A DNA stretch of 64,000 bases from Collimonas fungivorans Ter331 (GTDB lineage Bacteria; Pseudomonadota; Gammaproteobacteria; Burkholderiales; Burkholderiaceae_D): contig NC_015856.1 in the NCBI RefSeq assembly GCF_000221045.1, positions 1 to 64,000 on the forward strand, written 5' to 3'. Shown piece after piece: positions 5,519 through 23,454 of this stretch; position 1 is the first letter of the stretch; every line of letters begins with the position of its first letter. The notes beneath the pieces are model-generated. The model was not told the DNA's origin, searched no databases, and saw only the letters and a list, made by a program, of their open reading frames with translations. The position numbers were made by a program, and so were the translations under genes.

Positions 5519-5546
5519 TTTATCCATCGACCTGATTACGGGGCAT

Positions 5547-5713: not shown

Positions 5714-5727
5714 GGATATCAAGCCTG

Positions 5728-8700
5728 ATGGTTTTCAGCGAAGACTCGCGAGTCAAAATACCTTGCATTCTGCATTTGGTGCGGCTTGGCTACAGTTATC
5801 TTTCCTTGAAAGATGTTGCTTGGGATGAAAAAACCAACATCTTCCCGGACCTTTTTCGCACAGCTATCGCCCGGATCAACCCAGCCATTGACGATAGCAA
5901 CATCGATCGCCTGTTAATCGAAGTCAAACTCCTGCTCGATAACGAAGATCTTGGTAAGGCCTTCTACGAAAAGTTTACGGAGCGCTCAGGTATCCGGTTG
6001 ATCGACTTTGAGAACTTTGACAATAACAGCTTCCATGTTGTTACTGAGTTGACCTGCAAAAATGGGGACGATGAGTTTCGGCCCGATATCACGTTGCTCA
6101 TCAATGGCATGCCACTGGCGTTTATTGAGGTTAAGAAGCCCAATAACCGTGAAGGCGTTTTGGCCGAGCGTAACCGTATCATTACACGCAGCAGGAACCC
6201 TCGTTTCCGTCGTTTCATCAACATTACGCAGTTGATGGTCTTCTCCAACAACATGGAATACGACGATGGCTCGCCGCAGCCCATCGAAGGCGCATTTTAT
6301 GCCAGCCCGTCTTATGATGCGCCAGTGTTCAACTATTTCCGCGAAGAAGAATCGCTGGATCTCGCAAACCTGCTGGCTGACGAGGATGACGCCGCTGAGA
6401 ACGAAGTGCTGCGCGACAACAATCTGAACGTCATCAAGCACAGCCCCGAGTTTATCAGCAACAAATCGCCCGATGCGCCGACGAACCGCATCTGTACTTC
6501 ACTGTTTAGCCGCGGTCGGCTGGCCTTCTTACTGCGATTCGCGCTAGCCTATGTGAATGAGACCGATGGGCTGCAAAAGCACATCATGCGTTACCCGCAG
6601 CTCTTCGCTACTAAAGCAATCGAGCGTAAGCTTGATGATGGCGTGCGTAAAGGCATCATTTGGCACACCCAGGGCAGCGGCAAGACCGCGCTGGCCTACT
6701 ACAACACCCGCTTTCTGACGGATTACTTTCAGCGAAAGGGCGTTGTCCCAAAGTTCTATTTCATCGTTGACCGACTCGATCTACTTAGCCAGGCGCAGCG
6801 CGAATTTACCGGGCGCGGGTTGATCGTGCACACCATTGACAGCCGCGAAGCCTTCGCCCGCGATATCAAGACCACACAGGTGCTGCACAACAACACCGGC
6901 AAGCATGAAATTACCGTGGTCAACATTCAGAAATTTCAGGATGACCCGGACGTGGTGCGTACCGAGGATTACGACGTCAGCATCCAACGCATCTATTTTC
7001 TCGACGAGGTGCACCGCAGCTACAACCCGCAGGGCAGTTTTCTTGCTAACCTCAGCCAATCCGACCGCAATGCTATCAAGATCGGACTTACCGGCACGCC
7101 ACTGCTCGGGGATGATTACAATTCCCGTGTGCTGTTTGGCGACTACATCCACAAGTATTACTACAACGCGTCAATCGCCGACGGCTATACTCTGCGCCTG
7201 ATCCGCGAAGAGATTGCAACGAACTACAAGCTCACTTTGCAAGAGGCGCTCGCTGCCGTGGAGTTGCAGCAAGGGGATATTGACCGAAAGCTCATTTACG
7301 CACACCCGAAATTTGTCGAACCAATGCTCGATTACATCGTGCGTGATTTTGAGAAGAGTCGCAGTGCGCTGGGCGATGTCAGCATCGGCGGCATGGTCAT
7401 CTGCGACAGCGCCGAGCAGGCTCGCCAGATGTTCGAGATTTTTAACGCGGTCTATGCGGTCCAGCCCACATCAGTTTATGCTGTGCAAGACTCCACGCAA
7501 GCATTGATCGCTGCCGCGAAGCCCGAGAGCTATGCTGCTCGCGCACTGTTGGAGAACCGTGCAAAGAGTGCGGCGCTGATTTTGCACGACGTGGGCAGTA
7601 AGGAAGAGCGCAAGCAATGGGTCGAAGACTTCAAGACTGGCAAGATCGACCTGCTATTCGTCTACAATATGTTACTCACTGGCTTTGATGCCAAGCGTCT
7701 GAAGAAGCTCTACCTCGGGAGAGTAATCCGTTCGCATAATCTGCTGCAAGCGCTCACCCGCGTAAATCGCACCTACAAGGATTTTCGTTACGGCTATGTC
7801 GTCGATTTCGCCGACATTCGCAAAGAGTTTGACGTCACCAACAAAGCCTATTTCGACGAATTGCAGGCCGAGTTGGGCGACGAAGTAGAACATTACTCCA
7901 ATCTATTTAAATCCGCAGAAGAGATTGCTCAGGAAATCGAAGCTATCAAGGATATCTTGTTCAGTTTCGATATCGAAAACGCCGAGGTATTTTCACAGCA
8001 GATCAGTCAGATTCAGGACCGTGCCACAGTATTGGCGCTCAAGAAAGCGCTGGCCGATGCACGCAATCTTTACAACCTGATCCGCTTGCAAGGTGAAAAC
8101 ACGCTGCTGCAGCAACTCGATTTCCAAAAGCTCAATCAGCTTTACCGCGAGACCTGCAACCATCTTGATCTGCTCAACCTCAAGGAAAACATCGAGTCCA
8201 GCACCAGCACCAACAATCTGCTCAATATCGCGCTGGAAGACGTGCTGTTCATGTTCACCAAGGTTAAGGAAGAAGAGTTGGTGTTAGCCGACAAGCTCAA
8301 GAGCACCTTGCGCCAGACTCGCGAAGCTCTAGCTGATAACTTCGACCAGCAGGACCCAAAATTTATCACGCTCAAGGAAGAGTTGGAGCGGTTATTCAAG
8401 AAAAAGAAGTTGAACGAAGTTAGCCAGGTAGAAATGACCGCCAATATTGGTGCCCTTAGTGCCATTTACGACAAGGTCAAGGAGCTGAACCGCCAGAACA
8501 ACCAGCTCCGCGCCAAATATCGGGGCGATAACAAATACACTCGCATCCACAAACGGCTGCAAGAGCGCAGTACGGTGACGCAAACTGAGCGGCGCCTCTT
8601 CGAGGCCCTTTTTGGAGTCAAACAGCAGGCCGACGAACAGGTGCTGCAGAACACTCAATTGCTGGCCAATGAAAGCTACTTCGAGCGAATGATGATGCCG

Positions 8701-8838
8701 ATTGTGTTGGGCGAGTTCGAGACCCGTCAAAAGGTTCATCTCAATCTTGACGCCGCTGACACTATCAACCATCTGGTTGTGACCGAATACATGAATGAAT
8801 TTGCCTTAGGCAGCAGAACAGGAGTACGCAGTTGGTAA
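5728..8838 (+). CDS. hsdR: Type I restriction enzyme, restriction/translocase subunit HsdR
   Basis: This 1036-residue subunit gives the type I complex ATP-driven DNA translocation and cleavage. An N-terminal nuclease domain carries D120 and E134-x-K136, the PD-(D/E)xK pattern. The SF2 motor follows, with Walker A (GSGKT, about 316-320), DEVH at 426-429 and TGTP near 455. The C-terminal third, rich in Glu and Lys, is the helical region that contacts the methylase core. The frame is intact and the length typical. It is the first gene of an hsdR-hsdM-hsdS operon and overlaps hsdM by seven bases. Base composition is lower in GC than gyrB, in keeping with horizontal acquisition. Confidence 0.96.
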   Translation: MVFSEDSRVKIPCILHLVRLGYSYLSLKDVAWDEKTNIFPDLFRTAIARINPAIDDSNIDRLLIEVKLLLDNEDLGKAFYEKFTERSGIRLIDFENFDNNSFHVVTELTCKNGDDEFRPDITLLINGMPLAFIEVKKPNNREGVLAERNRIITRSRNPRFRRFINITQLMVFSNNMEYDDGSPQPIEGAFYASPSYDAPVFNYFREEESLDLANLLADEDDAAENEVLRDNNLNVIKHSPEFISNKSPDAPTNRICTSLFSRGRLAFLLRFALAYVNETDGLQKHIMRYPQLFATKAIERKLDDGVRKGIIWHTQGSGKTALAYYNTRFLTDYFQRKGVVPKFYFIVDRLDLLSQAQREFTGRGLIVHTIDSREAFARDIKTTQVLHNNTGKHEITVVNIQKFQDDPDVVRTEDYDVSIQRIYFLDEVHRSYNPQGSFLANLSQSDRNAIKIGLTGTPLLGDDYNSRVLFGDYIHKYYYNASIADGYTLRLIREEIATNYKLTLQEALAAVELQQGDIDRKLIYAHPKFVEPMLDYIVRDFEKSRSALGDVSIGGMVICDSAEQARQMFEIFNAVYAVQPTSVYAVQDSTQALIAAAKPESYAARALLENRAKSAALILHDVGSKEERKQWVEDFKTGKIDLLFVYNMLLTGFDAKRLKKLYLGRVIRSHNLLQALTRVNRTYKDFRYGYVVDFADIRKEFDVTNKAYFDELQAELGDEVEHYSNLFKSAEEIAQEIEAIKDILFSFDIENAEVFSQQISQIQDRATVLALKKALADARNLYNLIRLQGENTLLQQLDFQKLNQLYRETCNHLDLLNLKENIESSTSTNNLLNIALEDVLFMFTKVKEEELVLADKLKSTLRQTREALADNFDQQDPKFITLKEELERLFKKKKLNEVSQVEMTANIGALSAIYDKVKELNRQNNQLRAKYRGDNKYTRIHKRLQERSTVTQTERRLFEALFGVKQQADEQVLQNTQLLANESYFERMMMPIVLGEFETRQKVHLNLDAADTINHLVVTEYMNEFALGSRTGVRSW

Positions 8839-10466
8839 CGCAGGAATTTGAACAACGCACCCGAGAATTAATTGATAGCCTTAAGGCCATCTGCGCTGCC
8901 TATGGTTTGGGCAATGATGGCAACGAATTCAAAATCATCACCCAGGTTTTTCTCTATAAATTTCTTAACGATAAATTCGCCTTCGAAGCCAAGAAGATCC
9001 GACCGGATTTAGCAAAAGCCGATAAATGGGAACAAGCCATTGCCAGCCTGAGCGATGAGGAGCTTGGCAAACTGCATCGCAAGATGGGGCCGGACACAGC
9101 ACGACTGAAACCCGAGCACTTCATTTCTCACCTGTGGAACCGCCAGACAGCTCCGGAATTCGCCAAGCTGTTTGACGACACCCTGCGGGATATCGCGATT
9201 ACCAACAACGACATCTTCGCCGTCAAGACCGATGGTGGCGCCAAGATCACTCTGTTCGACCGAGTCAGTGAGTTCATCACCGATCCCTCCAAGCGCGATG
9301 CTTTCTGCCGTGCCCTTATCAACAAGCTGGGCGACTTCAGCTTTGAGCGCATTTTCACGCAGAAATACGACTTCTACGCCGCACTATTTGAATACCTTAT
9401 CAAGGATTACAACAAGGATAGCGGTGGGAAATACGCCGAGTACTATACCCCGCACGCCGTGGCCAAGATCATGGCCGCCATCCTCGTGCCGGAAGCGGTA
9501 CGCGGAAAAATCAAAAACGTGAGCTGCTACGACCCCTCGGCCGGTTCCGGCACGCTGCTCATGAACATCGCCCACGCCATTGGCGAACAACGCTGCACCA
9601 TTTATTCGCAGGACATCTCGCAGAAATCATCCAGCTTGCTGCGCCTGAACTTGATTTTGAACAACTTGGTTCACTCCATTCCAAACATTATCCAGGGCAA
9701 CACCGTGCTTCACCCCTACCATCGACAAGGTAAGGCGCTCAGGAAATTCGACTACATTGTTTCCAATCCGCCCTTCAAGATGGATTTCAGCGATTTTAGG
9801 AATGAGCTGGACGCCAAAGAGCACAAGGAACGCTTTTTCGTCGGGGTGCCGAATATCCCTAAACAGGCCGTAGACAAGATGGCTATCTACCAGCTCTTTC
9901 TACAACACATCATTCACTCGCTGAAACCCGGCGGTAAAGCTGCCGTAGTGGTGCCCACGGGCTTCATCGCTGCGCAAAGTGGTATCGACAAGGGCATCCG
10001 CCAGCATCTGGTGGACAACAAAATGCTGGCGGGCGTGGTTTCGATGCCAAGCAACATCTTCGCTACAACCGGCACAAATGTCTCCATCCTGTTTATTGAC
10101 GCTGCTAACAAAGAAGGTGTGGTGCTGATCGACGCCTCCAGTCTTGGCACCAAGGTCAAGGATGGGAAAAATCAGAAAGTTCTGCTTGCTGGAGCTGAAG
10201 AAGATTACATTATCGCCACCTTTAACAGCAAAGAGATGGTTGAGGATTTCTCGGCGGTGGTAAGTTATGACGAGATCGTCGCCAAGAATTACAGCTTGAA
10301 CGCCGGACAGTATTTTGAAGTGAAGATCGAGTATACAGACCTGACACCTGCTCAGTTTTCTGCGAGGATTCAAGGCTTTACCGACAAACTGAGCCCGCTG
10401 TTCAAGGAATCGGCGCGGCTGGAGAAAGAGATCAAAAAACAATTGGTAGGGTTGCAGTATGAGTAA
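8832..10466 (+). CDS. hsdM: Type I restriction-modification DNA methyltransferase HsdM
   Basis: This 544-residue adenine-N6 methyltransferase subunit uses S-adenosylmethionine and pairs with HsdS for target recognition. The N-terminal HsdM helical domain is followed by motif I DPSAGSGTLL (from residue 234) and the catalytic NPPF at 312-315. The start is a TTG at 8832 that overlaps the hsdR stop by seven bases, with GGAG about ten bases upstream, so translation is probably coupled. It overlaps hsdS by eight bases. No frameshift or missing motif is seen, so the methylase should be active. Confidence 0.96.
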   Translation: MVTQEFEQRTRELIDSLKAICAAYGLGNDGNEFKIITQVFLYKFLNDKFAFEAKKIRPDLAKADKWEQAIASLSDEELGKLHRKMGPDTARLKPEHFISHLWNRQTAPEFAKLFDDTLRDIAITNNDIFAVKTDGGAKITLFDRVSEFITDPSKRDAFCRALINKLGDFSFERIFTQKYDFYAALFEYLIKDYNKDSGGKYAEYYTPHAVAKIMAAILVPEAVRGKIKNVSCYDPSAGSGTLLMNIAHAIGEQRCTIYSQDISQKSSSLLRLNLILNNLVHSIPNIIQGNTVLHPYHRQGKALRKFDYIVSNPPFKMDFSDFRNELDAKEHKERFFVGVPNIPKQAVDKMAIYQLFLQHIIHSLKPGGKAAVVVPTGFIAAQSGIDKGIRQHLVDNKMLAGVVSMPSNIFATTGTNVSILFIDAANKEGVVLIDASSLGTKVKDGKNQKVLLAGAEEDYIIATFNSKEMVEDFSAVVSYDEIVAKNYSLNAGQYFEVKIEYTDLTPAQFSARIQGFTDKLSPLFKESARLEKEIKKQLVGLQYE

Positions 10467-11730
10467 CGCGATCAATACCAGAAAATCATTTTCTGGAAAA
10501 GCCAGTCCTTTACATAAGCTGTGTTTCTCAATAACGGATTGTCATCACTCAACGCCGAGATGGTGCGATGATGGAAAAATTGTTGTTAGAAATTTCAACA
10601 TTAAGAACGGTAAGCTCGATTTAAGCTGCCCTTCTTATACAGATGAGAAAACTTTCAAAGAACGGATCTCGCGTGCTAAGCCTGAGGCAGGTGACTTAAT
10701 CATCACTCGCGAAGCTCCTATGGGGGAGCTCTGCGTTATCCCGGCGGGCATAGAGTGTTGTCTTGGTCAAAGAATGGTCCTAATAAAACCTGACCCGAAG
10801 AAGATAGGCAGTAGGTATCTCCTCTACGCAATGCTCTCCGAATTTGTTCAAGGTCAAATAAATCGAAGTGACAAAACAGGCTCAATCGTTAGTAATTTGC
10901 GGATTCCTTTACTGAAGGAGCTCGAGATTCCCTTGATCGATGGGAGCGAAGAGATCGCAGCCGTCCTTTCCACCATTGACGCTAAGATCGACTGCAACAA
11001 TCGCATAAGCGCCGAGCTAGAGGCCATGGCCAAGACTTTGTTCGACTATTGGTTTGTACAATTCAACTTCCCTGACGCCAACGGCAAGCCCTACAAATCC
11101 TCTGGTGGGAAGATGGTTCACAACGCCATCCTGAAACGGGAGATTCCGAAGGGATGGGCCGACTCAAGCATTCAGGCTATAGCTGATCTGCTCGGTGGTG
11201 GAACGCCTACAAAAAAGAAGTCAGAATACTGGGGGGGCGATATCCCATTCTTCACTCCTACGGATGCTGACGGAACTATCTTTAAATTTTCCACAGCAGA
11301 TTACATTACCGACGATGGCTTGAAAGGCAGTAGTACCAAGCTCTTCGGCAAGAATACTGTTTTCATCACTGCGCGTGGATCTGTGGGTAGGTTGGTATTG
11401 GCTGGAGTCGACATGGCTATGAACCAGTCCTGTTATGCACTGCGTGCCAAGCCGGGCGTTAGCCATGTCTTTCTGTTTTATCTAGCTAAGGAATTGATTC
11501 ATCATCTGCATGTCAAGTCTTCCGGTTCGGTCTTCAATTCGATCGTCTCGAATGACATCGAACTGACCAATCTTGCGATTCCAAAAGGTGAGGTCATTAC
11601 AAAATTTGCCGCGGTCGTTGAGCCAATGTTCGAGAAAATTGGGAACAACACCAAGGAAAACCAGCATCTCGCTACACTTCGTGACTGGCTCTTGCCCATG
11701 CTGATGAATGGCCAAGTGACGACTGCATGA
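10459..11730 (+). CDS. hsdS: Type I restriction-modification specificity subunit HsdS
   Basis: This 423-residue subunit sets the DNA target of the HsdR/HsdM complex. Two variable target-recognition domains (about residues 15-155 and 235-365) are each followed by a conserved helical segment (EEIAAVLSTIDAKIDCNNRI and the C-terminal TKFAAVVEPMFEKI / LRDWLLPMLMNGQV). This is the usual two-TRD layout recognising a bipartite sequence. Its ATG overlaps the end of hsdM by eight bases. The recognition sequence cannot be predicted from the protein alone. The gene has visibly lower GC than hsdR, as is common for these fast-evolving subunits. Confidence 0.95.
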   Translation: MSNAINTRKSFSGKASPLHKLCFSITDCHHSTPRWCDDGKIVVRNFNIKNGKLDLSCPSYTDEKTFKERISRAKPEAGDLIITREAPMGELCVIPAGIECCLGQRMVLIKPDPKKIGSRYLLYAMLSEFVQGQINRSDKTGSIVSNLRIPLLKELEIPLIDGSEEIAAVLSTIDAKIDCNNRISAELEAMAKTLFDYWFVQFNFPDANGKPYKSSGGKMVHNAILKREIPKGWADSSIQAIADLLGGGTPTKKKSEYWGGDIPFFTPTDADGTIFKFSTADYITDDGLKGSSTKLFGKNTVFITARGSVGRLVLAGVDMAMNQSCYALRAKPGVSHVFLFYLAKELIHHLHVKSSGSVFNSIVSNDIELTNLAIPKGEVITKFAAVVEPMFEKIGNNTKENQHLATLRDWLLPMLMNGQVTTA

Positions 11731-11862
11731 AGGAGTAACAATTTCGGGCACGACAAGAACTCATTTGCACAATAGTATTTCATTGCCGCGAAAGATCTCG
11801 TCGTGTAAGCCTTGCCCTCCACGCAACAAAAAATAATCTCTTCTACTCGTCCCTGTGCCAGA

Positions 11863-13686
11863 CTAGTAATCGTTATCGGTGTCAGCGTTCATAATGCCGC
11901 TGGCCATTGAAGCCTTTCCCATCGCTCCCTCAATCAGCTCCAGGAGTGCCGCCTTCCGCGCTTGGTAGAACTCCTCGAAATCGTCTGCGCGCAGCGCATT
12001 TGCGTCGATCCGATGACTCGTTAGCAAGGCATTCATTCCTTCGTCCGACAACTGCACCTGTTTGTGTCCCTGTAGTTTGCTGAGGTATGCCGATGGAGCT
12101 GATCCACCAATCATGCGGTTTGCCTTGTAGGAAATCGGAGTCTTGTTGACGATAGCGTTGTAGGTGGCACGCTTGATACCCTGCTTCTCGCACCAGTCCT
12201 GCGGGAAGATATGGTGGATGTCCAAAGCGATGTCCTCTTGGTCCAGCTCCTGAATCTTGGCCTTCCAGAAAAAATCTTCCGCACCCTCACGTAATACCAA
12301 CATGTTAATGCCCTTGTATGCAGCACTCAAGCGTGACCACAGACGATCCAACCGGTCGGGACTGAAGGTCGCTTCCAAGACAGTGCGTGGTACAGCTCTC
12401 TCATCCTTTACCCACCCCAGCAGCTCTTCCACATCGTTAGCAATTCGCGTTTCCACAGCGCCGCCATAAAGCTCGCCTAACACGCCGCACCAATACCAGC
12501 GCGACAACTTCGCATGAATCATCGGCTCCAACCAGCGTTCCTTTAGAATCGCCAGCACGGCAGCCAAAGGTGCAAGTTGGGTCCGGTATGGCAGCTCACG
12601 CGGGTCTCGTATATGTTCCTTACGCAGAAATTTGGCCACAAGCATGAAGCCTTGCTCAACTGGAGCTGCCCATTTTTTATAGTCCGGCAACTCAAGGGCC
12701 AATATCGCTACTCGCTTGGCGCTCACCGGCGCGACCTGTTTGTCCTTCTTCCCCGCTGCCAGATCAATCTGGCGCTTCTCCAGCGTGTGAAGCATGGTCA
12801 CAGCTTGAAGGAAGTCTGTGGTTTCCACCTGCTGCAGCACCGGCTCTTTGCACAGCCGCTCTTGTCGCGACTGCACATTGCGCTGCTTACTGCCATACCA
12901 GTCGTCTCGCAGGTTGTAACCGTCGGCCGCGTAGGTCGCGGTCATCAACTCAAACACATTAAGCGGAACGCCACCGGTATTAACCTTCTCGAACACCAAG
13001 CACACTGCTTCCTTTGAGGTAGCCTTATGTAACTGAATCACCGGTAGTTGGTAGTTGCGAAACGCCCCAAGTACGTCTTTACGGAACCGCATGTACAACC
13101 CAAAGTGCTCTGACGCGTGTTCTTGTAGTGCTTCTTCCCAAGCATCGGAGTTGAGAATTTGGTCACAGGGAAAATACAGTTGTGCGCACTCCTTGATCGG
13201 GCTGCTCAAATCAAGTACCGTGTCGCGGCCAAAATTGGAGCGCAGAATACGGTCCGGTTCGAGAGCCAAAATAGCGTCGTCGAGTCTGTCACCGCCTTCC
13301 AGTGCGGTGGGGATATGCCAATAGTAGTGGCGCTCAATCGCTTTGCCCTTGTCGGTACGCGTTTTCACTGCCGATTTCAAGGCCAATACCTGTGTCAACG
13401 TAGTCAGCCGTTGCTGTCCGTCCAGGATCAGCAGCTCCGCCTCAGCAGCACTCCCAGGTAGCACCACGCCCTCCACTGCCCGGAGTTGAAAACGTGCTTC
13501 GCCGCCCGTTTCTAGTAGCATCACCGCACCCACTGGGAAGGAGCGCGCCACGCTCACAAGAAGGCTGCGAATATGGTCATCGTCCCAAACCCAGCCACGC
13601 TGGAAGTCAGGGAGCTGAATCTTACCCCTCGCTATTTCCGTTAGAATTTCTGGCAGTAGGCGTTTAGTGCTATCGAAAGTACTCAT
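11863..13686 (-). CDS. DUF262/DUF1524 protein, GmrSD-like nuclease
   Basis: This 607-residue protein has the N-terminal DUF262 (ParB/sulfiredoxin-like) motif LDGQQRLTTL with DGQQR at 89-93. The C-terminal DUF1524 HNH-type motif is HHIFP at 491-495, followed by the conserved N-K-T-P-I-S and KANRMIGG segments. This single-chain arrangement is that of GmrSD-type type IV restriction enzymes, in which the DGQQR domain hydrolyses nucleotides and the HNH domain cuts modified DNA. Related DUF262 proteins commonly sit beside type I systems. It is convergent with hsdS, with a 132-bp gap. Family assignment is good; the substrate (glucosylated, methylated or other DNA) cannot be told. Confidence 0.85.
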   Translation of the reverse strand: MSTFDSTKRLLPEILTEIARGKIQLPDFQRGWVWDDDHIRSLLVSVARSFPVGAVMLLETGGEARFQLRAVEGVVLPGSAAEAELLILDGQQRLTTLTQVLALKSAVKTRTDKGKAIERHYYWHIPTALEGGDRLDDAILALEPDRILRSNFGRDTVLDLSSPIKECAQLYFPCDQILNSDAWEEALQEHASEHFGLYMRFRKDVLGAFRNYQLPVIQLHKATSKEAVCLVFEKVNTGGVPLNVFELMTATYAADGYNLRDDWYGSKQRNVQSRQERLCKEPVLQQVETTDFLQAVTMLHTLEKRQIDLAAGKKDKQVAPVSAKRVAILALELPDYKKWAAPVEQGFMLVAKFLRKEHIRDPRELPYRTQLAPLAAVLAILKERWLEPMIHAKLSRWYWCGVLGELYGGAVETRIANDVEELLGWVKDERAVPRTVLEATFSPDRLDRLWSRLSAAYKGINMLVLREGAEDFFWKAKIQELDQEDIALDIHHIFPQDWCEKQGIKRATYNAIVNKTPISYKANRMIGGSAPSAYLSKLQGHKQVQLSDEGMNALLTSHRIDANALRADDFEEFYQARKAALLELIEGAMGKASMASGIMNADTDNDY

Positions 13687-14532
13687 GCGATAAATGTGTG
13701 TGTAGTTATATTACTGGTTTGTCTCACCAGTGCGTCGTCAATCTAAATCTGCTCGATGCCCCCACCCCGCCTGTTGTACGGCAGGCCTGATGAATTTATT
13801 GCTCCATTCTCTACATTGCAACACAATCCGATCATGCTGCTTTTTTAGCAATTTAGGAATCTAGCCGGCCATTATGAATTTGGGTCTTGCTCTAGATACT
13901 TAACGTCAATTCCGCCGGCGTTCATGGCAAGTATTTGCCCATCTCGTTTGGCGATCTTGGACCCGCTCGCTTAGATAATTCGATGAGGGATGCTTTCGTC
14001 AAGCCAGTCCTCATCCAGCCCATGCGATTCTTCAAAACACCTCGCTGACTACTCGGTAAGAGTTCTCCTCATTGCATGTTCCGGAAGTGCTTCCTCCGCA
14101 TCACGGCAGCGAGCGTTCGACGCCATCTCCCAGAACTCGGAGTGAGGAAAGCATGCAGGTTTGATAGTCTTAGATTGGCATTGGATGGGAAAGTTGTCTA
14201 GTAATAAATCTATGCTGCCTCGTAAGAGTTTTCAAAGAAACATCAAATTAGATGCGTGGGGACTAACCGCATTATCATAATCAGCACTTTTACAAAAGAA
14301 CCCGGCGATTATTCGCCGTGCATCATTGATTACATTTCTAGTATTTGGGCTCACCCAGATTCTTGCCAACATTACCATGGGTTCGCTTACAATCTCGCAC
14401 AATGACCTGAGATGGAGGTTCAGTCCAATAGCGGTTATCCGCCGCAGGATAGCCAACCGATCTTTCATATCAAATCGACGACGAATAACTCAGTTCGTTG
14501 TATTTTTTACTTCTAAACGGAGTTAGAACGAT
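13687..14532. other. Mostly non-coding gap with a possible decayed minus-strand gene
   Basis: About 850 bp without an intact gene. On the minus strand, two frames give protein-like peptides that end at stops: one containing LTKASLIELSKRAGPRSPNE ending near 13922, the other KIAKRDGQILAMNAGG ending at 13872. They could be pieces of one frameshifted gene, but no family is recognised. The remainder (14020-14532) is AT-rich; I see no gene in it. The gene at 14533 has a good GGAG ribosome binding site at its end. Confidence 0.35.
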
Positions 14533-15315
14533 ATGAACGAACTATTTGCGAAGTTGACAAACCTTAGCTATGAAATCTTCGGAGTATTTTTGCCAGGGAT
14601 GGTGACGAGCATGTTCGCGATACTACTCTGGGCAGCACTTGGCAACTTAGCACCTTACTGGACTCACGATGTCCTTCCTATTTTTGTGCTGGACACCCTT
14701 AGAGCATTGATTAACTCTCTCAACGTTGCAAGTGGAATCGGTGCCGGAATCCCAATTCTTGGTATATGGTACTTTCTTGGTCATATTATTCTATGGATTG
14801 GAAGATCGGGTAAAGCTAGAGCGGATGCGATGTCAGCGCCTTTCAGGCGGCTCGGTTTATCTTTGATTTTCCGAATCCCTAGACCTGTAGAACCATTCAA
14901 CACAAAACTCGATCCGCTGTTTGATCTGGCGAAAAAGAATTTTGTGACGGATGGCTTAACTATGGAATGGCGTCAATTTTTCCCGGTTGCAAAAATCTTT
15001 CTTTCTCAGCGGCTTACAACTTCGCTGGTTACAACATACCAAAACAAGTACACGTTCCATCGATCTGTCGTAACTATAAGTGCTTTGTTATTTTGGGTGT
15101 CAATTCTCGCCTTGAGCTGTGCATACATCTCGGTACGAGCGGGTGCCCCAGCACCATATTGGTGGGCGCTTTTTACTTTAGCTGTTGGCGCCATCATCTT
15201 CGTCTGGAACTTCTCAGCCAGTTATCTGTATCATTGGGAGATGTTCGGGAATTCCATTGTCACTGAAACGTATTCGCTTTTGTATGCCCCAAAAGATGCT
15301 TCAAATCCAAAGTAA
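14533..15315 (+). CDS. Predicted multi-pass membrane protein of the defence island
   Basis: This 260-residue protein is not recognised. Hydrophobic stretches at about 13-37, 65-88, 180-201 and 208-229 suggest four membrane passes, with a soluble stretch of about 90 residues (roughly 90-180) between the two pairs. An RSGKARADA segment follows the second helix and fits a cytoplasmic location. The ATG has GGAG about 11 bases upstream. The last 20 bases overlap the next gene, a DEDDh exonuclease, so the two are probably made together. Low GC and the position between restriction genes and a reverse transcriptase suggest a defence role, which is inference from context only. Confidence 0.75.
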   Translation: MNELFAKLTNLSYEIFGVFLPGMVTSMFAILLWAALGNLAPYWTHDVLPIFVLDTLRALINSLNVASGIGAGIPILGIWYFLGHIILWIGRSGKARADAMSAPFRRLGLSLIFRIPRPVEPFNTKLDPLFDLAKKNFVTDGLTMEWRQFFPVAKIFLSQRLTTSLVTTYQNKYTFHRSVVTISALLFWVSILALSCAYISVRAGAPAPYWWALFTLAVGAIIFVWNFSASYLYHWEMFGNSIVTETYSLLYAPKDASNPK

Positions 15316-15883
15316 AAACCTTGTTGTTATTGATCTCGAGACCAGCGGCGTCAATCCGTTTCGACACGATGTCCTGGCAATTGGACTTGCGCCTGTGTCG
15401 ATACGCTCCGCAGAACGTGTTATTTATGTGCGATCTCCGCAAATCTGCTGGAGTCCATATGCCAAGAAAAATTTCGAAAAATTTTCAGCTGATTGGGAAA
15501 TAGAAGCAATTGAGCCCATTGCTGCTTGTGAAGAATTAGAGCGCTATTTTCTGCAAATTTTTGATGGTGAGCCAGCCGTAGCAATTGGGCATAACGTCGG
15601 TTTCGACGTTGCGTTTTTACGTAAGCTAGCTTTTTTAGCGGCAAAAGATGAAATAGTAGGTTTATCGCATCGAGCGCTCGACACGCACACGATCTTGCAC
15701 CTCCTTTTCCTTAAAGGCGCTATTCCAGCCTCGGCGGTCAAATCTGACGGCGCTTTTGAATATTTTGGAATTGATATTCCAGAAAAGCAAAGACACACGG
15801 CCTTGGGCGATGCCATAGCCACACGTAAGCTATTTTTTAAGTTACTGGAAGCCCTGGGGATCTCCGGTAGTGCGACGATTTAA
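15296..15883 (+). CDS. DEDDh 3'-5' exonuclease (DnaQ-like)
   Basis: This 195-residue protein shows all three exonuclease motifs: ExoI VVIDLETSG (D13, E15), ExoII GHNVGFDVAF (D104) and ExoIII HTALGDAIAT (H167, D172). It is therefore a two-metal 3'-5' exonuclease of the DnaQ/RNase T/epsilon type, standing alone without a polymerase domain. The start chosen is the ATG at 15296, inside the end of the upstream membrane-protein gene; an ATG at 15284 is also possible. Translation coupling is likely because no clear ribosome binding site is visible. Comparable exonucleases occur as partners in several phage-defence systems; whether DNA or RNA is the substrate cannot be told. Confidence 0.85.
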   Translation: MLQIQSKNLVVIDLETSGVNPFRHDVLAIGLAPVSIRSAERVIYVRSPQICWSPYAKKNFEKFSADWEIEAIEPIAACEELERYFLQIFDGEPAVAIGHNVGFDVAFLRKLAFLAAKDEIVGLSHRALDTHTILHLLFLKGAIPASAVKSDGAFEYFGIDIPEKQRHTALGDAIATRKLFFKLLEALGISGSATI

Positions 15884-15915
15884 GCATCCCGCAAGTCTAA
15901 AAGAGTCCACCTCAA

Positions 15916-16003
15916 AAAGGATCCGGGGTCAAGTTTTGCAATGACATATTATGTAGTTGGCCAGTCATCGAATACGTTATTGCAAGACTTGACCCCAACC
16001 TTC
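15916..16003. repeat. Palindromic mobile-repeat-like element, left copy flanking the RT module
   Basis: This 88-bp unit has nearly perfect 18-bp inverted arms (15925-15942 and 15979-15996, 17 of 18 matching, GGGGTCAAGT...ACTTGACCCC) around a 36-bp centre. A second copy in direct orientation lies at 18080-18168, beyond the reverse transcriptase gene. Its form is that of a REP/MITE-like element. Confidence 0.85.
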
Positions 16004-16287
16004 ATGCAGAGCGGCTGCCAATACACCATGGAATGCTTGCGACGAACATTCGATATCCAGTCATCTTGCGACCCAATGCAGCTCGCTGCGCCTGATTCAT
16101 TGATGCAGAAAACCGCTATTTGGTGCATTGCTTTATGCGAGACTCCTAACGTCCCAAGGTGCACCATCTATATATTCAACTTTTTGAATTTCTGGGCATC
16201 GAGGGTGTCTGCTGAAGCGAACATGTAAGTAAAGCCGTTTCGTTCAGTCCGACAATCAATATTCAATATTGACTAACTTGAAAAAAA

Positions 16288-16319
16288 TTGACAATTTGCA
16301 ATTTTTCTATCAGTATATT
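16288..16319 (+). promoter_or_regulatory. Candidate promoter of the RT-associated RNA
   Basis: A perfect -35 box TTGACA at 16288-16293 is followed by CAGTAT at 16311-16316 (17-base spacing) overlapping TATATT at 16314-16319 (20-base spacing). The stretch is very AT-rich and ends a few bases before the structured RNA. The start site would fall near 16324. Confidence 0.55.
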
Positions 16320-16321
16320 CG

Positions 16322-16470
16322 TACTTCCTAAGGGGAAGAACGGAGTCACTCTCATACGCGGTTACGTGCCGCGACATTGGAGGTGAAGAGTCAACTCTCC
16401 ATCAACCTGAAATCTTACTTTTACTAGGTTGACTCCGTGGGAAGCCCAAGGCTTTTGCCTTGGGCTTTTT
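16322..16470 (+). ncRNA. Structured RNA upstream of the reverse transcriptase (DRT-type ncRNA candidate)
   Basis: The stretch between the promoter and an intrinsic terminator has no obvious protein gene but is rich in pairing. A small CTTCC/GGAAG hairpin is at the start. A 9-bp perfect stem joins 16340-16348 with 16430-16438 and encloses 81 bases. Inside it are a CGCGG/CCGCG hairpin (16357-16373) and TGGAG/CTCCA (16378-16401). The 3' strand at 16426-16438 can instead pair with 16388-16395 or 16402-16408, so alternative folds exist. Defence RT families DRT2 and DRT9 have such an RNA directly upstream of the RT as template and scaffold. The boundaries are inferred; the 5' end could lie further upstream. 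Confidence 0.6.
16442..16470 (+). terminator. Intrinsic terminator separating ncRNA from RT gene
   Basis: An 11-bp perfect stem (16442-16452 with 16457-16467, AAGCCCAAGGC and its complement) with a TTTT loop runs into five T residues. It ends 19 bases before the RT start codon, so much of the RNA should end here and the RT should be read through at low level. This is the strongest terminator-like structure I noticed in the window. Confidence 0.9.
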
Positions 16471-16489
16471 GTCATTCTGGGAGCTATAG

Positions 16490-17983
16490 ATGAATCTTGC
16501 AAAACAGATTGAGAAGTACATTCGGGAAGAAGCCGAAAAGCTAATCGAGCGGCACCACAACTATCACAATAGCCTTCACAAAGAACACGAGCGGTTAAGT
16601 AAGAGGGTGAATGATGCGCCAAAAAAAGAGATTCGCACGCCTGATTACTGGAACATCGACAAAAAATTCAATCCGTTCTATGTCAGGAGGAGAGCGAAGA
16701 GTATAGCCCTGTCAATCGCGCTGAAAATACAAAATGGGGAATATGCCCCGAACGATCCGCATATAAAAGAAATAGATAAGCCAGGCGGAGGAAAGCGTCA
16801 ACTTACCATCTATCAAATCCCGGACGCTGCCGTCTCACAGCTATTTTATACTCGACTATTAGCAAAAAATAGACACCGCTTTAGTTCATTCTCGTACGCC
16901 TATCGAAATGATCGAAATGTACATTTCGCCATTCAAGACATATCGGTTGATATTGAACAAGATGCGAGAACCTTTATTGCCGAGTTCGATTTTTCCGATT
17001 TCTTCGGGTCTATTAACCACCAATCTTTATTTCTACAATTTTCAAAAAATGGCTTCTTTATTAGCCAGGAGGAAATTTCAGTTATAAAGGCATTCCTAGC
17101 TAAGCGTGAGAAAGGAATACCGCAGGGCACTTCAATCTCACTCTTCCTGGCAAATTTGGTCTGCTGGAAATTAGATAATAGCCTTGAAAAAGCAGGGTTA
17201 AAGTTCGCACGATATGCTGATGACACCGTTATTTGGAGCCCCGATTACGCTGCAATTTGTAACGCACTTGAGATAATCAATGCGTTTTCTATAGAAGCGG
17301 GAGTTTCAATAAATGCCAAGAAGTCGGATGGAATAAGCCTGCTGGCCCGCGACGGTAGCAGATCCGAAATTGCTTCTAAACCCGACTTCAATTTTTTGGG
17401 TTATGCGATCAGTCCGACTAAGGTTTCGATTAAAGCAAAATCTGAACGCCGAATAAAGAAGCAAATCTCATATTTGCTCTATCGAAATCTGATCCAACCT
17501 ATTAGAACAAAACCCTTACGTGGATTAATAATTCCGTCGAATAATCGAGACCCAGCATTTTTGAGCGCAATGTTACAGGTTCGGAGATATTTGTATGGGG
17601 GCCTCCTACACAAAGAAATGGCAGAATATATTCGCGGCAGAAGATCGTCAATCTTATTTAAGGGCGCAATGAGCTTCTACCCGCTGCTTAACGACGAACA
17701 GCAGCTTCGAAATCTTGACGGCTGGTTACTTTCGGTCATCCATCGTGTTCTAAAGAAGAGGTGTGATTTACTTCTAACGCACAAATATGATCTACGGGAA
17801 GCCTTTCCTTTTTCGTCGCCAAGGGATAAGTTGGTTATTCAGTGCCGAAGAAAACTCGTTAATGGAAAGGGTCTAATGGAGATCCCTAGCTTTATGTTGA
17901 TCTACAAGGCGCTCAAAAAGGGCCTCAACGAACATGGTATCGAACGAGTCATGAATCCGAAATCTCTCCAGTATGATTATTAG
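16490..17983 (+). CDS. Defence-associated reverse transcriptase (DRT/UG family, DRT2-like)
   Basis: This 497-residue protein carries the RT palm: motif A FDFSDFF (166-172), motif B IPQGTSISLFLAN (210-222), catalytic YADD (242-245), and NFLGY at 301-305. An N-terminal basic helical region (1-75) and a C-terminal extension of about 170 residues flank it. There is no maturase or endonuclease domain, which argues against a group II intron. The retron-specific NAxxH and VTG motifs are absent. Together with the upstream structured RNA and terminator this best fits an antiviral unknown-group RT, most like DRT2; the subtype is my inference. AT-rich codon use and flanking repeats indicate transfer. 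GGGAG upstream supports the ATG. Confidence 0.85.
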   Translation: MNLAKQIEKYIREEAEKLIERHHNYHNSLHKEHERLSKRVNDAPKKEIRTPDYWNIDKKFNPFYVRRRAKSIALSIALKIQNGEYAPNDPHIKEIDKPGGGKRQLTIYQIPDAAVSQLFYTRLLAKNRHRFSSFSYAYRNDRNVHFAIQDISVDIEQDARTFIAEFDFSDFFGSINHQSLFLQFSKNGFFISQEEISVIKAFLAKREKGIPQGTSISLFLANLVCWKLDNSLEKAGLKFARYADDTVIWSPDYAAICNALEIINAFSIEAGVSINAKKSDGISLLARDGSRSEIASKPDFNFLGYAISPTKVSIKAKSERRIKKQISYLLYRNLIQPIRTKPLRGLIIPSNNRDPAFLSAMLQVRRYLYGGLLHKEMAEYIRGRRSSILFKGAMSFYPLLNDEQQLRNLDGWLLSVIHRVLKKRCDLLLTHKYDLREAFPFSSPRDKLVIQCRRKLVNGKGLMEIPSFMLIYKALKKGLNEHGIERVMNPKSLQYDY

Positions 17984-18079
17984 CTAAATCGACTTTGTCT
18001 CTGAAAAATCCTGCCACCAATTGACCGCTTCTGTTCTGATTAGGCAATTCGGAAAAAATGAATTCAACCCGCTGTGGGC

Positions 18080-18168
18080 AAAGGATCCGAGGTCAAGTCT
18101 TGCAATGATATATTATGTAGTCGGCGGAATCACCGAATGCGTTATTGCACGACTTGACCCCAACCTTC
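18080..18168. repeat. Palindromic mobile-repeat-like element, right copy flanking the RT module
   Basis: This is a direct copy of the element at 15916-16003, with one extra base and about a dozen substitutions. Its inverted arms are at 18089-18106 and 18144-18161. Together the two copies bracket the ncRNA and reverse transcriptase. Confidence 0.85.
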
Positions 18169-18187
18169 GTAATGCGATTTGGCAACG

Positions 18188-18400
18188 TTAAAGCCCGTTA
18201 AAAAGCTCAGCCACCGTGACATTCAATGCGATAGCCAAAGCTTCAATCGCAGACAGAGAGGGATTGCGCACCCCTCTTTCAATACCACTGATGTATGTGC
18301 GGTCAAAACCACACATGTCGGCAAATCCCTCTTGAGAAAGAGCCCGCTCTTTCCTCAGTTCTCTTATGCGTTCACCAAAGCGTATGGATAAAGTTTTCAC
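18188..18400 (-). CDS. XRE-family helix-turn-helix regulator
   Basis: This 70-residue protein is a single Cro/C1-type HTH domain: RIRELRKERALSQEGFAD, then DRTYISGIERGVRNPSLSAI, ending shortly after the fifth helix. The compact form, and the sequence around TYISGIERG, resemble the small controller proteins of restriction-modification systems. It reads toward the RT gene, and its own upstream region holds three GACTAATCG repeats, so self-regulation is plausible. What else it controls cannot be told; the hsd operon is about 8 kb away. Confidence 0.85.
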   Translation of the reverse strand: MKTLSIRFGERIRELRKERALSQEGFADMCGFDRTYISGIERGVRNPSLSAIEALAIALNVTVAELFNGL

Positions 18401-18422
18401 ATAAGCATTAACCCATTTTGTA

Positions 18423-18472
18423 GACTAATCGAACACGGACTAATCGTCACATGTTACGTTGTAGACTAATCG
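18423..18472. promoter_or_regulatory. Three GACTAATCG repeats upstream of the XRE gene
   Basis: Identical 9-mers stand at 18423-18431, 18438-18446 and 18464-18472, with start-to-start distances of 15 and 26 bases. They lie 23-72 bases upstream of the XRE start codon. Their position fits operator sites for the XRE protein; binding itself is inference. Confidence 0.5.
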
Positions 18473-18593
18473 GCACCTTTGGGTGGCACGGGTTCTGAGC
18501 AGTTGAAGGTCTCACAAGGCTGCTTTGCGAAAATTTTATCTTGAGCCCTACTGTCTCCACGGAATTGCCGATTGTTCGCCCTGACTTCAGACA

Positions 18594-18854
18594 ATGGCAA
18601 AGGAGTTCCTTGTGACAAACATCCGTACACGACCTGCAAAATCCGCCGCATCTGCTCCGGACTGTTCCGAAGCAATCAGCAGATCCGCCGCGAATATTCA
18701 GAATCGACTCACCGTGTCCTTCTATCAGGAGGATGACCCTGAAATTTTATGGATACGACTGCGTGGTGCGGGACTCAAACGAGCCGGTTTTGCGCCTCAT
18801 TCTCCGTTGCGCGTCAGAATTATGAGCGGCTGTCTTATGATTACCAGCAAATAA
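18594..18854 (+). CDS. SymE-like toxin
   Basis: This 86-residue protein has a variable N-terminal 35 residues, then LTVSFYQEDDPEILWIRLRG, followed by AGFAPHSPLRVRIMSGCLMI. This is the SymE pattern: an AbrB-like fold derived from antitoxins, in which an L-x-G-x-WL-xx-AGF core is followed by VRV-x-x-G. The usual W after the LRG is replaced here by G-L. SymE proteins are SOS-linked toxins, some acting on nucleic acids, usually held down by an antisense RNA. It lies between the XRE gene and the YhaV/PrlF pair. GTG or ATG codons inside the first 15 residues are alternative starts. Confidence 0.6.
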   Translation: MAKEFLVTNIRTRPAKSAASAPDCSEAISRSAANIQNRLTVSFYQEDDPEILWIRLRGAGLKRAGFAPHSPLRVRIMSGCLMITSK

Positions 18855-18873
18855 GGCAAAGCGTTCCATCAAT

Positions 18874-19389
18874 TCAGGGCTGCACCAGTGGTTCCGCTGC
18901 CGCGATACGCTGCAGACGGTCGCCTTCGGAACGCGCCTCGACCAATAGTTGATCCCAGTCGTCCGGAGGATGGCCGCTCTCCAGCATCTTGCGGAACACC
19001 CGGTAGGCATCGTCGCTGCTCTCATAGGCGCGCATGGTGCCCCCGTCGTTCACCCACGCGTAGACGATCACTTTGCTTGGTGCATGGTAGCGGAAGAACA
19101 GCCGGTACTGCTGGAAGAACTTGGCTCGGAACCAGTGCTTGTGGTCTTCGCCGAGGGTGTTTCCCTGCCGGTATTCGGCCCGCGACGGATCTTGCGGAAT
19201 CACCTCGAACGCCAGTTCGGCGATTGCTGCCAGCCGCCTCCTGGGGTTCTTTTTTGTGTATTCGGCGGGATCTTTTTGCTTGAGTGCCTCGACCTGCCGC
19301 ATCAGCGTTTCAATTTGCGCAAGGAATAGCGGGTGAGCGAAAACTGTCCACCCGTTGACGACCAGGTGCGCAGGTTTGCTGCCGGTCAT
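18874..19389 (-). CDS. yhaV: YhaV-family toxin (type II toxin-antitoxin)
   Basis: This 171-residue protein begins with VNGWTVFAHPLFLAQIE and continues with a DP-x-x-x-EYRQGNTLG and HWFRAKFFQQYRLFFRY core, the signature of the YhaV ribonuclease toxin of the RelE superfamily. In E. coli, YhaV cuts RNA in a translation-linked manner and is neutralised by PrlF. The start overlaps the stop of the upstream antitoxin gene by four bases (ATGA), giving the usual antitoxin-first coupled operon. The length is slightly above the E. coli protein. No inactivating change is evident. Confidence 0.92.
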   Translation of the reverse strand: MTGSKPAHLVVNGWTVFAHPLFLAQIETLMRQVEALKQKDPAEYTKKNPRRRLAAIAELAFEVIPQDPSRAEYRQGNTLGEDHKHWFRAKFFQQYRLFFRYHAPSKVIVYAWVNDGGTMRAYESSDDAYRVFRKMLESGHPPDDWDQLLVEARSEGDRLQRIAAAEPLVQP

Positions 19390-19715
19390 TCATCATCTGC
19401 CGGCAAGGCGGTATCCAGATCGACTTCAACACCGCCGACCAGTGACTGAATGCGTTGCACGAAATTGGCGTCGACGGCTTGGAGTCGTTCCGGATGGCTG
19501 GCAATGTCGCGGGCCAGAAAGCCCAGGAACTGCCCGAGCACCGGGTCCTCTTCCTCGGCCGCTTCCACGCGGGAGAGTACGACCTCACCGCCGGGGCGGA
19601 TCGTGTAGTGAATCTTGTCCCGCTTGCTCAGCTTCAGGGCGCGGCGAACGGTTTCCGGCACCGTTGTCTGGTAGCGATCGGTCAGGGTCGATTCGACTTC
19701 TAGGGAGGCAGTCAT
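19386..19715 (-). CDS. prlF: PrlF-family antitoxin
   Basis: This protein of about 109 residues starts at MTASLEVESTLTDRYQTTVP, where an AbrB/SpoVT swapped-hairpin DNA-binding fold continues as VRRALKLSKRDKIHYTIRPG. The C-terminal helical part (GQFLGFLARDI...) binds the YhaV toxin in this family. An ATG four codons upstream (19727) is an alternative start; the internal one matches the family better. As in other TA operons it should bind its own promoter, which lies in the short AT-rich stretch around 19720-19760. It overlaps yhaV by four bases. Confidence 0.92.
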   Translation of the reverse strand: MTASLEVESTLTDRYQTTVPETVRRALKLSKRDKIHYTIRPGGEVVLSRVEAAEEEDPVLGQFLGFLARDIASHPERLQAVDANFVQRIQSLVGGVEVDLDTALPADDE

Positions 19716-19992
19716 GGCGCACTCCAATTAAAGGGATGGATGACATTTATGGTAATGCATTTGCATTGCCATGTCAAAGCAAGCGCATTGCTTCCAGCCG
19801 TCTCGTCGAGAAAAGAGTTGGCCGAACAACGGCGCGATGGTTTGAAAGCCTCACTCGACAAACATAAGAGGATGAATCGCGCCCTCAGGCGAGACGCCCT
19901 TCAAGCCGATGTTGTCGAAGAGCTTGGGCGAGAATACCTGCCGAATTTGGGCAGGAACTGAATCGCACGAGGCATGCGTTCGTTCAATAAGG

Positions 19993-20025
19993 CCGTAGGG
20001 TGGGCACGCCTTTGTGCCCACGCGG
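19993..20025. repeat. Dispersed GTAGGGTGGGCAC repeat, short copy
   Basis: CCGTAGGGTGGGCAC is followed, after a short spacer, by GTGCCCACGCGG. It is a single hairpin-type copy of the family described at 2838. The surrounding 19716-20193 stretch contains no gene that I can support. Confidence 0.7.
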
Positions 20026-20101
20026 ACCGTCGGTCATGCGAGAAGTGCATACTGAGGAGGAATGTGCACAAGATGTTGGGCAGTTGCGACTAAGGTCATT
20101 T

Positions 20102-20174
20102 GCTATATACGTCCACACCCACACGTATAAAAAATCGACTTTTCTATACATATTCAAATTGATATGTATAGAAA
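20102..20174. repeat. Dispersed TTCTATACAT element with AT-rich hairpin, copy 1
   Basis: The 53-bp part 20102-20154 is about three-quarters identical to 23716-23769 (shared pieces CCACA..GTATA, ATCGA/ACGAT, TTTCTATACAT). Its end forms the left arm of a perfect 13-bp hairpin, TTTCTATACATAT at 20141-20153 with its complement at 20162-20174. It lies just beyond the 3' end of the minus-strand AraC gene and may act in its termination. Confidence 0.55.
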
Positions 20175-20193
20175 GTTGCTTTCTATATGCACA

Positions 20194-22203: not shown

Positions 22204-23454
22204 TTATGAAATGGTATTCACCTCTGCTTCTGGCCATAAACGCGGAAACAGATAGCGAAATAGTGACAAAGGCAGAGCCAGCTCGACGGGGCCTTTCGGG
22301 GATTTAGAAGTAATGATGCCTAATTTGAATAAATCTGCCAATGCGCGGTCAGATGTTCGGCTGGCCAAGCCCATCATGCCTTTGAACTTGGTTCGCTCCA
22401 TTGATTTTACTGTTCCCAGATAGGCCAGAGGGGTTGCTGCCTCGACCTTCAATGCTTTCGTGTCGTCCTTGGTGGATTCGGCTGCCAGCATTTCCCTCAG
22501 GCGCGCCTCAAAGGAAGGGATGTCTAGCATGCCGCTCATGAAGCTGACTTGGTCAAGGCAGGTGTTGATCAGGAACTGGATAAATTCGACTAATCCTTTT
22601 TCGCTTAATACACCGCGCCCGTCGTAATCTCCTTGTCGATCCTTGTCAGCAGCGATCAGATGCGCGTAATAATTTGCCTGTTCTCGCGCCAGCCCGCGCA
22701 TTGGGGACCAAAGTCCTTGCGTCAACCCTAAGGAGTTCAGTCCCAGATGTGTATGCAGGCGGGCTGTGCGGCCATTGCCATCCGTGAATGGATGTATCCA
22801 GGCAAACCGATGGTGCGCTGCCATCAGCGCTACTACGGCATTTTCTCCCGCTTTTGAATGACTGTATCCGCGCTGCCACTCCTCCATGAAAACTGGGACT
22901 GTGGCGGGATCAGGGGGAATGTGATTGCCTATCTTTACGCCTGCAGTTCTCCATTCACCTGGGTGTACTTTTTCTTTAGTTCCATCGTCGTTGGTTTGAA
23001 TCAGGTCGTCATCCAGCAGTTGCGTGTGTAAATGCCGATGGATGGCCTGTAAAACGCCTGGTTGAAAAAAGTTGGCGGCGTCGAAGCTTGGGTAAGTTAT
23101 TTCTCCCCAGCGCTCTGTTGCGATGTGGGCGATAGCTATGCGTTGCTTCTTGGCTTCATCTGGCTTATCTGAAAAATCCGCCTTTAAAGCCCTTTCAATC
23201 ATTAACGGCTCGGTATGCTGCCCTTCTATCTTGTTTGTATAAAAAGAATTCATTGGCCGCAATGTTTCTCGCAGCAAAGAACGAAGTTGTGGCATTCCCT
23301 GCGAAGCAAGATCTTTCGCATTGTTAATGAGCTCAGCTACCAACGGGCGCAAATCATTCATTGGCTGTTCGCTAGGCAACAGCGGAGACATTTGATGAGG
23401 GCTGTTGTAGTGATATTTTGATAATTTATCTGTCATAAAATATGCCAATTTCAC
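22204..23454 (-). CDS. Fic-domain protein with intramolecular inhibitory helix
   Basis: This 416-residue protein has the Fic active-site motif HPFTDGNGRTAR at 221-232. It also has an N-terminal inhibitory motif TNKIEG at 73-78 that matches [S/T]xxxE[G/N]. It should therefore be a class II, self-inhibited Fic enzyme transferring AMP (or another nucleotide moiety) to protein hydroxyls. A winged-helix-like segment near 355-385 (MMGLASRTSDRALADLFKLG) could bind DNA. An internal ATG at 23436 is an alternative start. The upstream region holds four GGCGAAT repeats, suggesting autoregulation. Related proteins vary between housekeeping and toxin roles; which applies here is not known. Confidence 0.9.
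   Translation of the reverse strand: MKLAYFMTDKLSKYHYNSPHQMSPLLPSEQPMNDLRPLVAELINNAKDLASQGMPQLRSLLRETLRPMNSFYTNKIEGQHTEPLMIERALKADFSDKPDEAKKQRIAIAHIATERWGEITYPSFDAANFFQPGVLQAIHRHLHTQLLDDDLIQTNDDGTKEKVHPGEWRTAGVKIGNHIPPDPATVPVFMEEWQRGYSHSKAGENAVVALMAAHHRFAWIHPFTDGNGRTARLHTHLGLNSLGLTQGLWSPMRGLAREQANYYAHLIAADKDRQGDYDGRGVLSEKGLVEFIQFLINTCLDQVSFMSGMLDIPSFEARLREMLAAESTKDDTKALKVEAATPLAYLGTVKSMERTKFKGMMGLASRTSDRALADLFKLGIITSKSPKGPVELALPLSLFRYLFPRLWPEAEVNTIS

Follow-up and report, generated by a model that had tools for sequence, protein, structure and literature searches.

Positions 1 to 64,000 of contig NC_015856.1 (assembly GCF_000221045.1) of Collimonas fungivorans Ter331 were analyzed; this whole stretch is called the window below. 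Between 16288 and 17983 it carries a reverse transcriptase (RT) gene preceded by a structured non-coding RNA (ncRNA). The features of this unit, all on the + strand, are the following.

16288-16293 (+): possible -35 hexamer TTGACA of an ncRNA promoter, weakly supported (sequence; no -10 at normal spacing)
16322-16472 (+): predicted span of the DRT9 ncRNA (start set by comparison with the E. coli DRT9 RNA, end by the terminator)
16324-16338 (+): stem-loop 1 (SL1) of the ncRNA (fold; two-sided changes in consensus pairs)
16340-16438 (+): region closed by the long-range consensus helix 16340-16347/16431-16438 (consensus structure, fold)
16387-16398 (+): hairpin AGAGUCAACUCU with loop UCAA, likely counterpart of stem-loop 5 (SL5) (fold, comparison with the E. 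coli RNA)
16409 (+): G ten bases ahead of the U4 tract, counterpart of G114, the kissing-pair partner (E. coli RNA map; role as given in PMC12489045)
16419-16422 (+): UUUU, predicted poly-dA template, in a loop closed by CAACC 16403-16407 and GGUUG 16427-16431 (aligned RNAs)
16443-16472 (+): intrinsic terminator, 10-bp hairpin 16443-16452/16457-16466 and T-rich tail (sequence, fold, same place in relatives)
16490-17983 (+): DRT9 (UG28) RT, 497 aa, ATG start (PADLOC Drt9, phmmer)
17213-17224 (+): YADD codons, residues 242-245, catalytic site (sequence, alignment)
17972-17980 (+): YDY codons, residues 495-497; Y495 and Y497 correspond to the priming tyrosines Y496/Y498 (role as given in PMC12489045 and PMC12483538)

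We found that RT and ncRNA almost certainly make up a complete DRT9 (UG28) anti-phage system, which would act by the proposed tyrosine-primed poly-dA scheme. An initial annotation of this locus had described an RT with an upstream ncRNA of the DRT2/DRT9 kind, neither a group II intron nor a retron RT. Profile and RNA-model evidence agrees with this description, and contradicts a second statement, that the system is most like DRT2.

Identity of the reverse transcriptase

Compared with profiles of the RT unknown groups, the protein matched the UG28/Drt9 family. The PADLOC Drt9 profile gave 715.6 bits, with RT residues 4-495 aligned to positions 2-487 of the 488 in the profile; the runners-up were a general RT model (110.7 bits), UG17 (94.2 bits) and, lower down, Drt2 (72 bits). 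A phmmer search against PDB had 9ioa_A on top (664.6 bits, residues 1-497 on 1-498), followed by a second match of 80 bits. The 9ioa chain sequence, common to six PDB entries, is identical to that of the E. coli DRT9 RT in our set of loci (L033, 499 residues), with which the Collimonas RT shares 298 of 497 residues (60%) over the full length. DRT9 of E. coli and Salmonella enterica (PDB 9ioa; PMC12489045, PMC12483538), as described there, likewise consists of a single RT of ~498 aa with an ncRNA upstream. The host and the genomic setting are different in Collimonas.

All three motifs reported in the initial annotation (FDFSD, IPQGTS and YADD) are present in the 497-residue protein, and its gene is AT-rich as stated (GC 42.3% vs 57.4% for the window). 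The alignment with the E. coli protein is full-length from residue 1 and includes the N-terminal extension with Y25, which is Y25 in both proteins. The lock residues K98/R104/R140 of DRT9 are kept as K97, R103 and R139, and YADD 242-245, Y495 and Y497 align with E. coli YADD 243-246, Y496 and Y498.

Structured RNA upstream of the reverse transcriptase

The compact foldable RNA proposed for the upstream region was recovered: the segment 16318-16473, terminator included, had a folding energy of -65.1 kcal/mol (z -5.45, reached by none of 200 shuffles), and the fold without the terminator was moderate (z -2.48, 2 of 200 shuffles as low). The terminator, annotated as perfect and as ending 19 bases before the RT ATG, has a perfect 10-bp hairpin and a T run ending at 16470; it is absent from the list produced by a pattern scan. 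A search of 14000-20000 against Rfam (E up to 1) yielded neither a group II nor a retron RNA, nor anything fitting the RNA, and its three matches (E 0.59-0.98) are at chance level.

RNAs were cut upstream of related RTs by the anchors AACGG and CCGTG, whose invariance follows from this selection; the U tract played no part in choosing the sequences. The alignment held 30 of 33 sequences (L002-L029, L031-L034 and the window), with L023 and L032 left out for having no such anchors and L034 as a near-copy of L033. In the consensus structure of these 30 sequences, 18 of 24 pairs had at least one sequence altered on both sides. Such changes were found in 4 of 5 pairs of SL1, 4 of 8 of the closing helix and 10 of 11 of the terminator, the last share being expectable of any terminator. 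The outer four pairs of the closing helix are invariant, being part of the anchors, and the inner four all had two-sided changes; the single-sequence fold of the Collimonas RNA keeps the outer six.

A covariance model was then built from the 29 relatives with the window held out. Over the 64 kb on both strands (up to E 10) it gave one match, at 16321-16441, with 79.6 bits and E 1.7e-16, E-values being rough as a result of short calibration. Among eight further loci, the model matched L058 (95.2 bits), L034 (93.5 bits, a near-copy of a training row), L059 (28.9 bits) and L023 (22.1 bits), and there was no match in L032, L043, L044 and L045, the contig of L045 beginning inside the RT and that of L043 ~110 nt ahead of it.

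All 30 aligned RNAs have the first three uridines of the template tract, and 29 have the fourth as well. The template of L015 (4826-4975; Luteimonas sp. 8-5) is UUUA, and five U were found in four Bacteroidota rows (L017, L019, L022 and L024). It has been reported that deletion of one U abolished defense by SenDRT9 (PMC12483538). The G at position -10 of the tract was found in 23 of 30 RNAs, a count in which L019 was read at the wrong place. The string CTTACTTTTA is present once in the window vs 0.03 expected. When the RNA of L033 was numbered with the first template U as U124, following PMC12489045, positions C94, G114, U121 and U67 were each as that paper describes them; there, C94 of the SL5 loop forms a kissing pair with G114. 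The Collimonas RNA shares with the E. coli RNA SL1, the closing helix, the SL5 loop C, its partner G and the UUUU template, and differs from it by a 3-nt deletion and a base change immediately before the template in the alignment.

Relatives and distribution

The subtype is the already described DRT9, of which the Collimonas locus is an ordinary intact member; the initial annotation had left open whether it was a known or a divergent one. In a tree of 36 RT sequences, the protein lay inside the main DRT9 clade as the sister of a Methylobacter sequence (support 97/94), within a beta-/gammaproteobacterial clade of nine rows (95/84). This Methylobacter sp. system (L002, JAUYMY010000018.1) is the nearest relative found, with 72% protein identity and the same short form of the ncRNA, and we know of no characterization of it.

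In a scan of genome contigs, 28 named loci were recovered whose best segment was 51-72% identical; they belong to Pseudomonadota, Bacteroidota, Campylobacterota, Thermodesulfobacteriota, Deferribacterota, Bacillota and a Riflebacteria metagenome-assembled genome (MAG). By tblastn (E up to 1e-40), 2 of 72,556 plasmid records and none of 50,697 phage records matched; relatives were encoded on two viral contigs. By blastn, 2 of 5,426 E. coli genomes matched, with ~40% of the query covered. With the Drt9 profile (E up to 1e-100), the only positive among 100 genomes of the genus and its wider kin was C. fungivorans Ter331 itself, none of 14 other same-genus genomes being matched, and in a sample of the phylum (E up to 1e-80) 4 of 398 genomes were positive, our own counted. 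By these counts the RT gene is sporadic and, given its low GC, was probably acquired. The tree also placed L018, a Sulfurovum MAG contig (Campylobacterota), among the DRT9s of Bacteroidota, which suggests either a transfer between phyla or a mis-binned contig.

Some distant members were observed as well. L032, on Thioclava sp. plasmid NZ_CP149928.1, encodes a distant DRT9 RT (PADLOC Drt9, 484 bits) followed immediately by a SLATT gene. The segment 2845-2985 of L032, upstream of this RT, is foldable (z -3.20, 1 of 200 shuffles as low) and was not matched by the DRT9 RNA model. By eye, its template position has CUUAGAUUAUC in place of CUUACUUUUAC, without U4, and UUAGAUUA has a period of 5, so that this RT, a single case, may yield a repeat and not a homopolymer. 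A scan of viral contigs with this SLATT-linked RT gave no relative, and a plasmid scan (E up to 1e-30) returned only itself and a Hymenobacter record. L044 (genome G174) and L045 (genome G233) encode distant RTs with Drt9-profile scores of 523 and 430 bits, and a frame resembling a metallo-beta-lactamase-fold protein (by eye) lies downstream of the L044 RT. When 385 genomes from the class to which G233 belongs were searched with the Drt9 profile, only the two distant RTs already found came up.

Proposed mechanism and alternative explanations

It has been reported that in DRT9 the RT and the ncRNA form a hexamer, that UUUU templates poly-dA and that the C-terminal tyrosines probably serve as primers (PMC12483538, PMC12489045). 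According to the same papers, exonuclease I (ExoI) clears the product without infection, phage nrdA/nrdB and T5 gp58, a 3'-end shield, permit its build-up, and the cells die. By analogy with this published work, the Collimonas ncRNA would bind and fold around the RT and aid its assembly into a hexamer. Synthesis would be primed by Y495 or Y497, one of the C-terminal tyrosines, and templated by the UUUU at 16419-16422, and repeated slipping on the four uridines would produce a long poly-dA attached to the RT itself. In uninfected cells ExoI would degrade this poly-dA. Phage infection, bringing more adenosine nucleotides and proteins that shield 3' ends, would let it accumulate, and the infected cell would die before phage release (abortive infection). 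A gene for ExoI is present in the same genome (319 bits), and the sequence features tested for this scheme are present, R205/K208 excepted. A study by Song et al. (Science 2025) on a bacterial RT making poly(A)-rich cDNA reportedly concerns DRT9.

Several observations weigh against the assignment to an active DRT9 system. First, the SL4-contact residues R205/K208 are not kept, the Collimonas RT having A204 and E207. In the E. coli complex these residues grip a flipped U of SL4, and the contacts were deemed essential for dimer assembly (PMC12489045). However, both positions are variable among the 29 relatives compared and therefore cannot serve as a criterion of DRT9 membership. Second, the ncRNA is ~26 nt shorter upstream of the template than that of E. 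coli, the U4 starting at about position 98 vs 124; the RNAs of several relatives are equally short. Third, the promoter is weak by consensus and is the sole weak part of the initial description. The hexamer TTGACA at 16288-16293 is indeed a perfect -35 element, but a scan gave no sigma-70-like site there: the best -10 at 15-19 nt from it had 3 of 6 matches, and TATATT (5 of 6) lies at a 20-nt spacer, two bases short of the inferred RNA start. Finally, in the parts of PMC12483538 covered here, two of the ten DRT9 systems tried in E. coli are named as defending, and therefore the activity of the Collimonas locus is not to be assumed.

The weak promoter and the loss of the R205/K208 counterparts could also point to a degraded or silent DRT9 relic that has lost its expression or activity, and the absence of other DRT9s from the 14 same-genus genomes would mark the locus as a recent or sporadic passenger. 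We consider a relic unlikely: the frame is intact across the full profile length, the catalytic, lock and priming residues are kept together with the RNA template and architecture, and R205/K208 also vary in other family members.

The closest type according to the initial annotation was DRT2 (UG2), in which the ncRNA is copied round into a concatenated cDNA, and the gene formed in this way encodes a toxic protein. The gene order is alike (ncRNA, then RT), the RT domain is the only domain of the protein, an RNA template is copied repeatedly in both types, and DRT2 and DRT9 have been described as sharing a common ancestry (PMC12489045). In contrast, the Drt2 models gave only 72 bits (PADLOC) and 67.4 bits (NCBIfam, cut-off 390) against the 715.6 bits of Drt9. 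The RNA was matched by the DRT9-RNA model and has ~150 nt, whereas the DRT2 RNA of K. pneumoniae has 280 nt (PMC12489045), and the C-terminal tyrosines of DRT9 are present. DRT2 also differs in its product, a coding concatemer, and works as a monomer (PMC12489045). A DRT2-like system is thus very improbable. Given the assignment of both RT and RNA to Drt9, the expected product is therefore poly-dA and not concatenated copies of the ncRNA.

DRT10 (UG17) was considered and rejected. Its RT is also of class 2 of the unknown groups and performs ncRNA-templated, protein-primed repeat synthesis (PMC12632851), but the UG17 profile had just 94 bits on the Collimonas RT, and DRT10 requires a SLATT protein, which was not named among the 20 window proteins run against Pfam and was not found near the RT.

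A group II intron or retron RT, with which the protein shares the RT domain, can be dismissed as already refuted by the family assignment: the NCBIfam group II RT model (136 bits, cut-off 300) and retron St85 model (79 bits, cut-off 235), like the Drt2 model, were all under their cut-offs in a search that listed no Drt9 model, Pfam gave RVT_1 alone without a maturase domain, and the Rfam search of 14000-20000 revealed no intron or retron RNA, in agreement with the initial annotation, which had seen no maturase or retron motifs.

Genomic setting

The window starts with dnaA, dnaN and gyrB. Behind gyrB lie a type I restriction-modification (R-M) system and a GmrSD_N protein, then a DEDDh exonuclease together with a membrane protein, then the DRT9 unit and a PrlF/YhaV pair. 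Genes around the unit include the following.

5728-11730 (+): type I R-M genes hsdR, hsdM and hsdS (NCBIfam, Pfam, PADLOC)
11863-13686 (-): GmrSD_N (DUF262-type) protein, 607 aa (Pfam; weak PADLOC matches)
18874-19727 (-): PrlF/YhaV toxin-antitoxin pair (Pfam)
22204-23454 (-): Fic-domain protein (Pfam, PADLOC)

The starts of five same-genus contigs were compared, four of which begin at dnaA; the gyrB of the fifth (G005) was taken separately. Behind gyrB, four same-genus genomes differed from the window and among themselves. G004 has an AbiEii protein there, and the araC of the window resumes at 8.6 kb. G009 has a type I R-M system and a PtuA-like ATPase, G007 has another type I R-M set, and PADLOC gave nothing (E up to 1e-20) for the single protein scanned in G012 (the scan covered ten proteins across the four genomes). 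Because the cargo behind gyrB differs among genomes, the region 5519-20193, from gyrB to an araC-family gene, is a variable defense hotspot near dnaA. The location in a defense island, as first annotated, is borne out by the type I R-M system, the GmrSD_N protein and the other defense cargo in same-genus genomes.

Two neighboring segments deserve mention. At 14533-15315 lies a gene for a 260-aa protein with about four hydrophobic segments, which had no match in Pfam, NCBIfam (E up to 0.001) or PADLOC (E up to 1e-10). Its end overlaps the gene of the DEDDh 3'-5' exonuclease at ~15296-15883 (PADLOC DEDDh, 54.6 bits), and together they look like a two-gene unit. To the right of the DRT9 unit, the segment 18184-18854 contains a frame of 86 residues that may resemble a SymE-type toxin and, judged by eye, a small helix-turn-helix gene (- strand); this segment is common to G012.

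Palindromic repeats around the DRT9 unit

The DRT9 unit is flanked by two direct repeats identified by sequence comparison.

15916-16003 (+): left 88-nt palindromic direct repeat
18080-18168 (+): right palindromic direct repeat, with 89% identity to the left

The repeats are 2,164 bases apart, and each is an imperfect palindrome with GGGGTCAAG...CTTGACCCC-like ends; an exact search with one palindrome pattern gave no match because the arms are imperfect. In 15 genus genomes, with our own included and reverse-strand self-matches not counted, there were six matches of at least ~70 bases (two in our own genome, two in G012, one in G005 and one in G009). Each of these six is 7-13 kb behind gyrB; shorter matches (26-37 bases) are located elsewhere. 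No repeat match at all was obtained in 11 of the 15 genomes, which include G004 and G007. In G012 the two copies flank a stretch 91% identical to that immediately to the right of the DRT9 unit in the window. The Collimonas flanks were not found in the 11.5-kb locus of the Methylobacter relative. Half-sites occur at four further places in our own genome, one of which is a palindrome with a different interior; altogether 12 half-site matches were found vs 0 for a reversed control.

It is conceivable, though we regard it as doubtful, that the DRT9 unit (~2.1 kb) is an exchangeable cassette and that the 88-nt palindromes are a hotspot-specific border for swapping defense modules behind gyrB in this genus. 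The observations are also consistent with a small mobile element located in the hotspot by chance, or with copies inherited from a common ancestor. In the sections of PMC12483538 and PMC12489045 covered here such a border element was not met, and no literature search was aimed at it. Repetitive extragenic palindromic (REP) elements served by a RAYT transposase were rejected, as the two Y1_Tnp genes (603569 and 4175951) are at least ~187 kb from every listed half-site.

Significance

The Collimonas locus adds one more intact DRT9, with a short ncRNA form common to several beta-/gammaproteobacterial relatives, which helps define the needed parts of the RNA. The natural template variants (UUU in one relative and five U in four) bear on the number of uridines needed, a question that the DRT9 authors left open in the part of PMC12483538 covered here. 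Besides, the palindromes could reveal how single-gene defense systems enter and leave a hotspot near dnaA.

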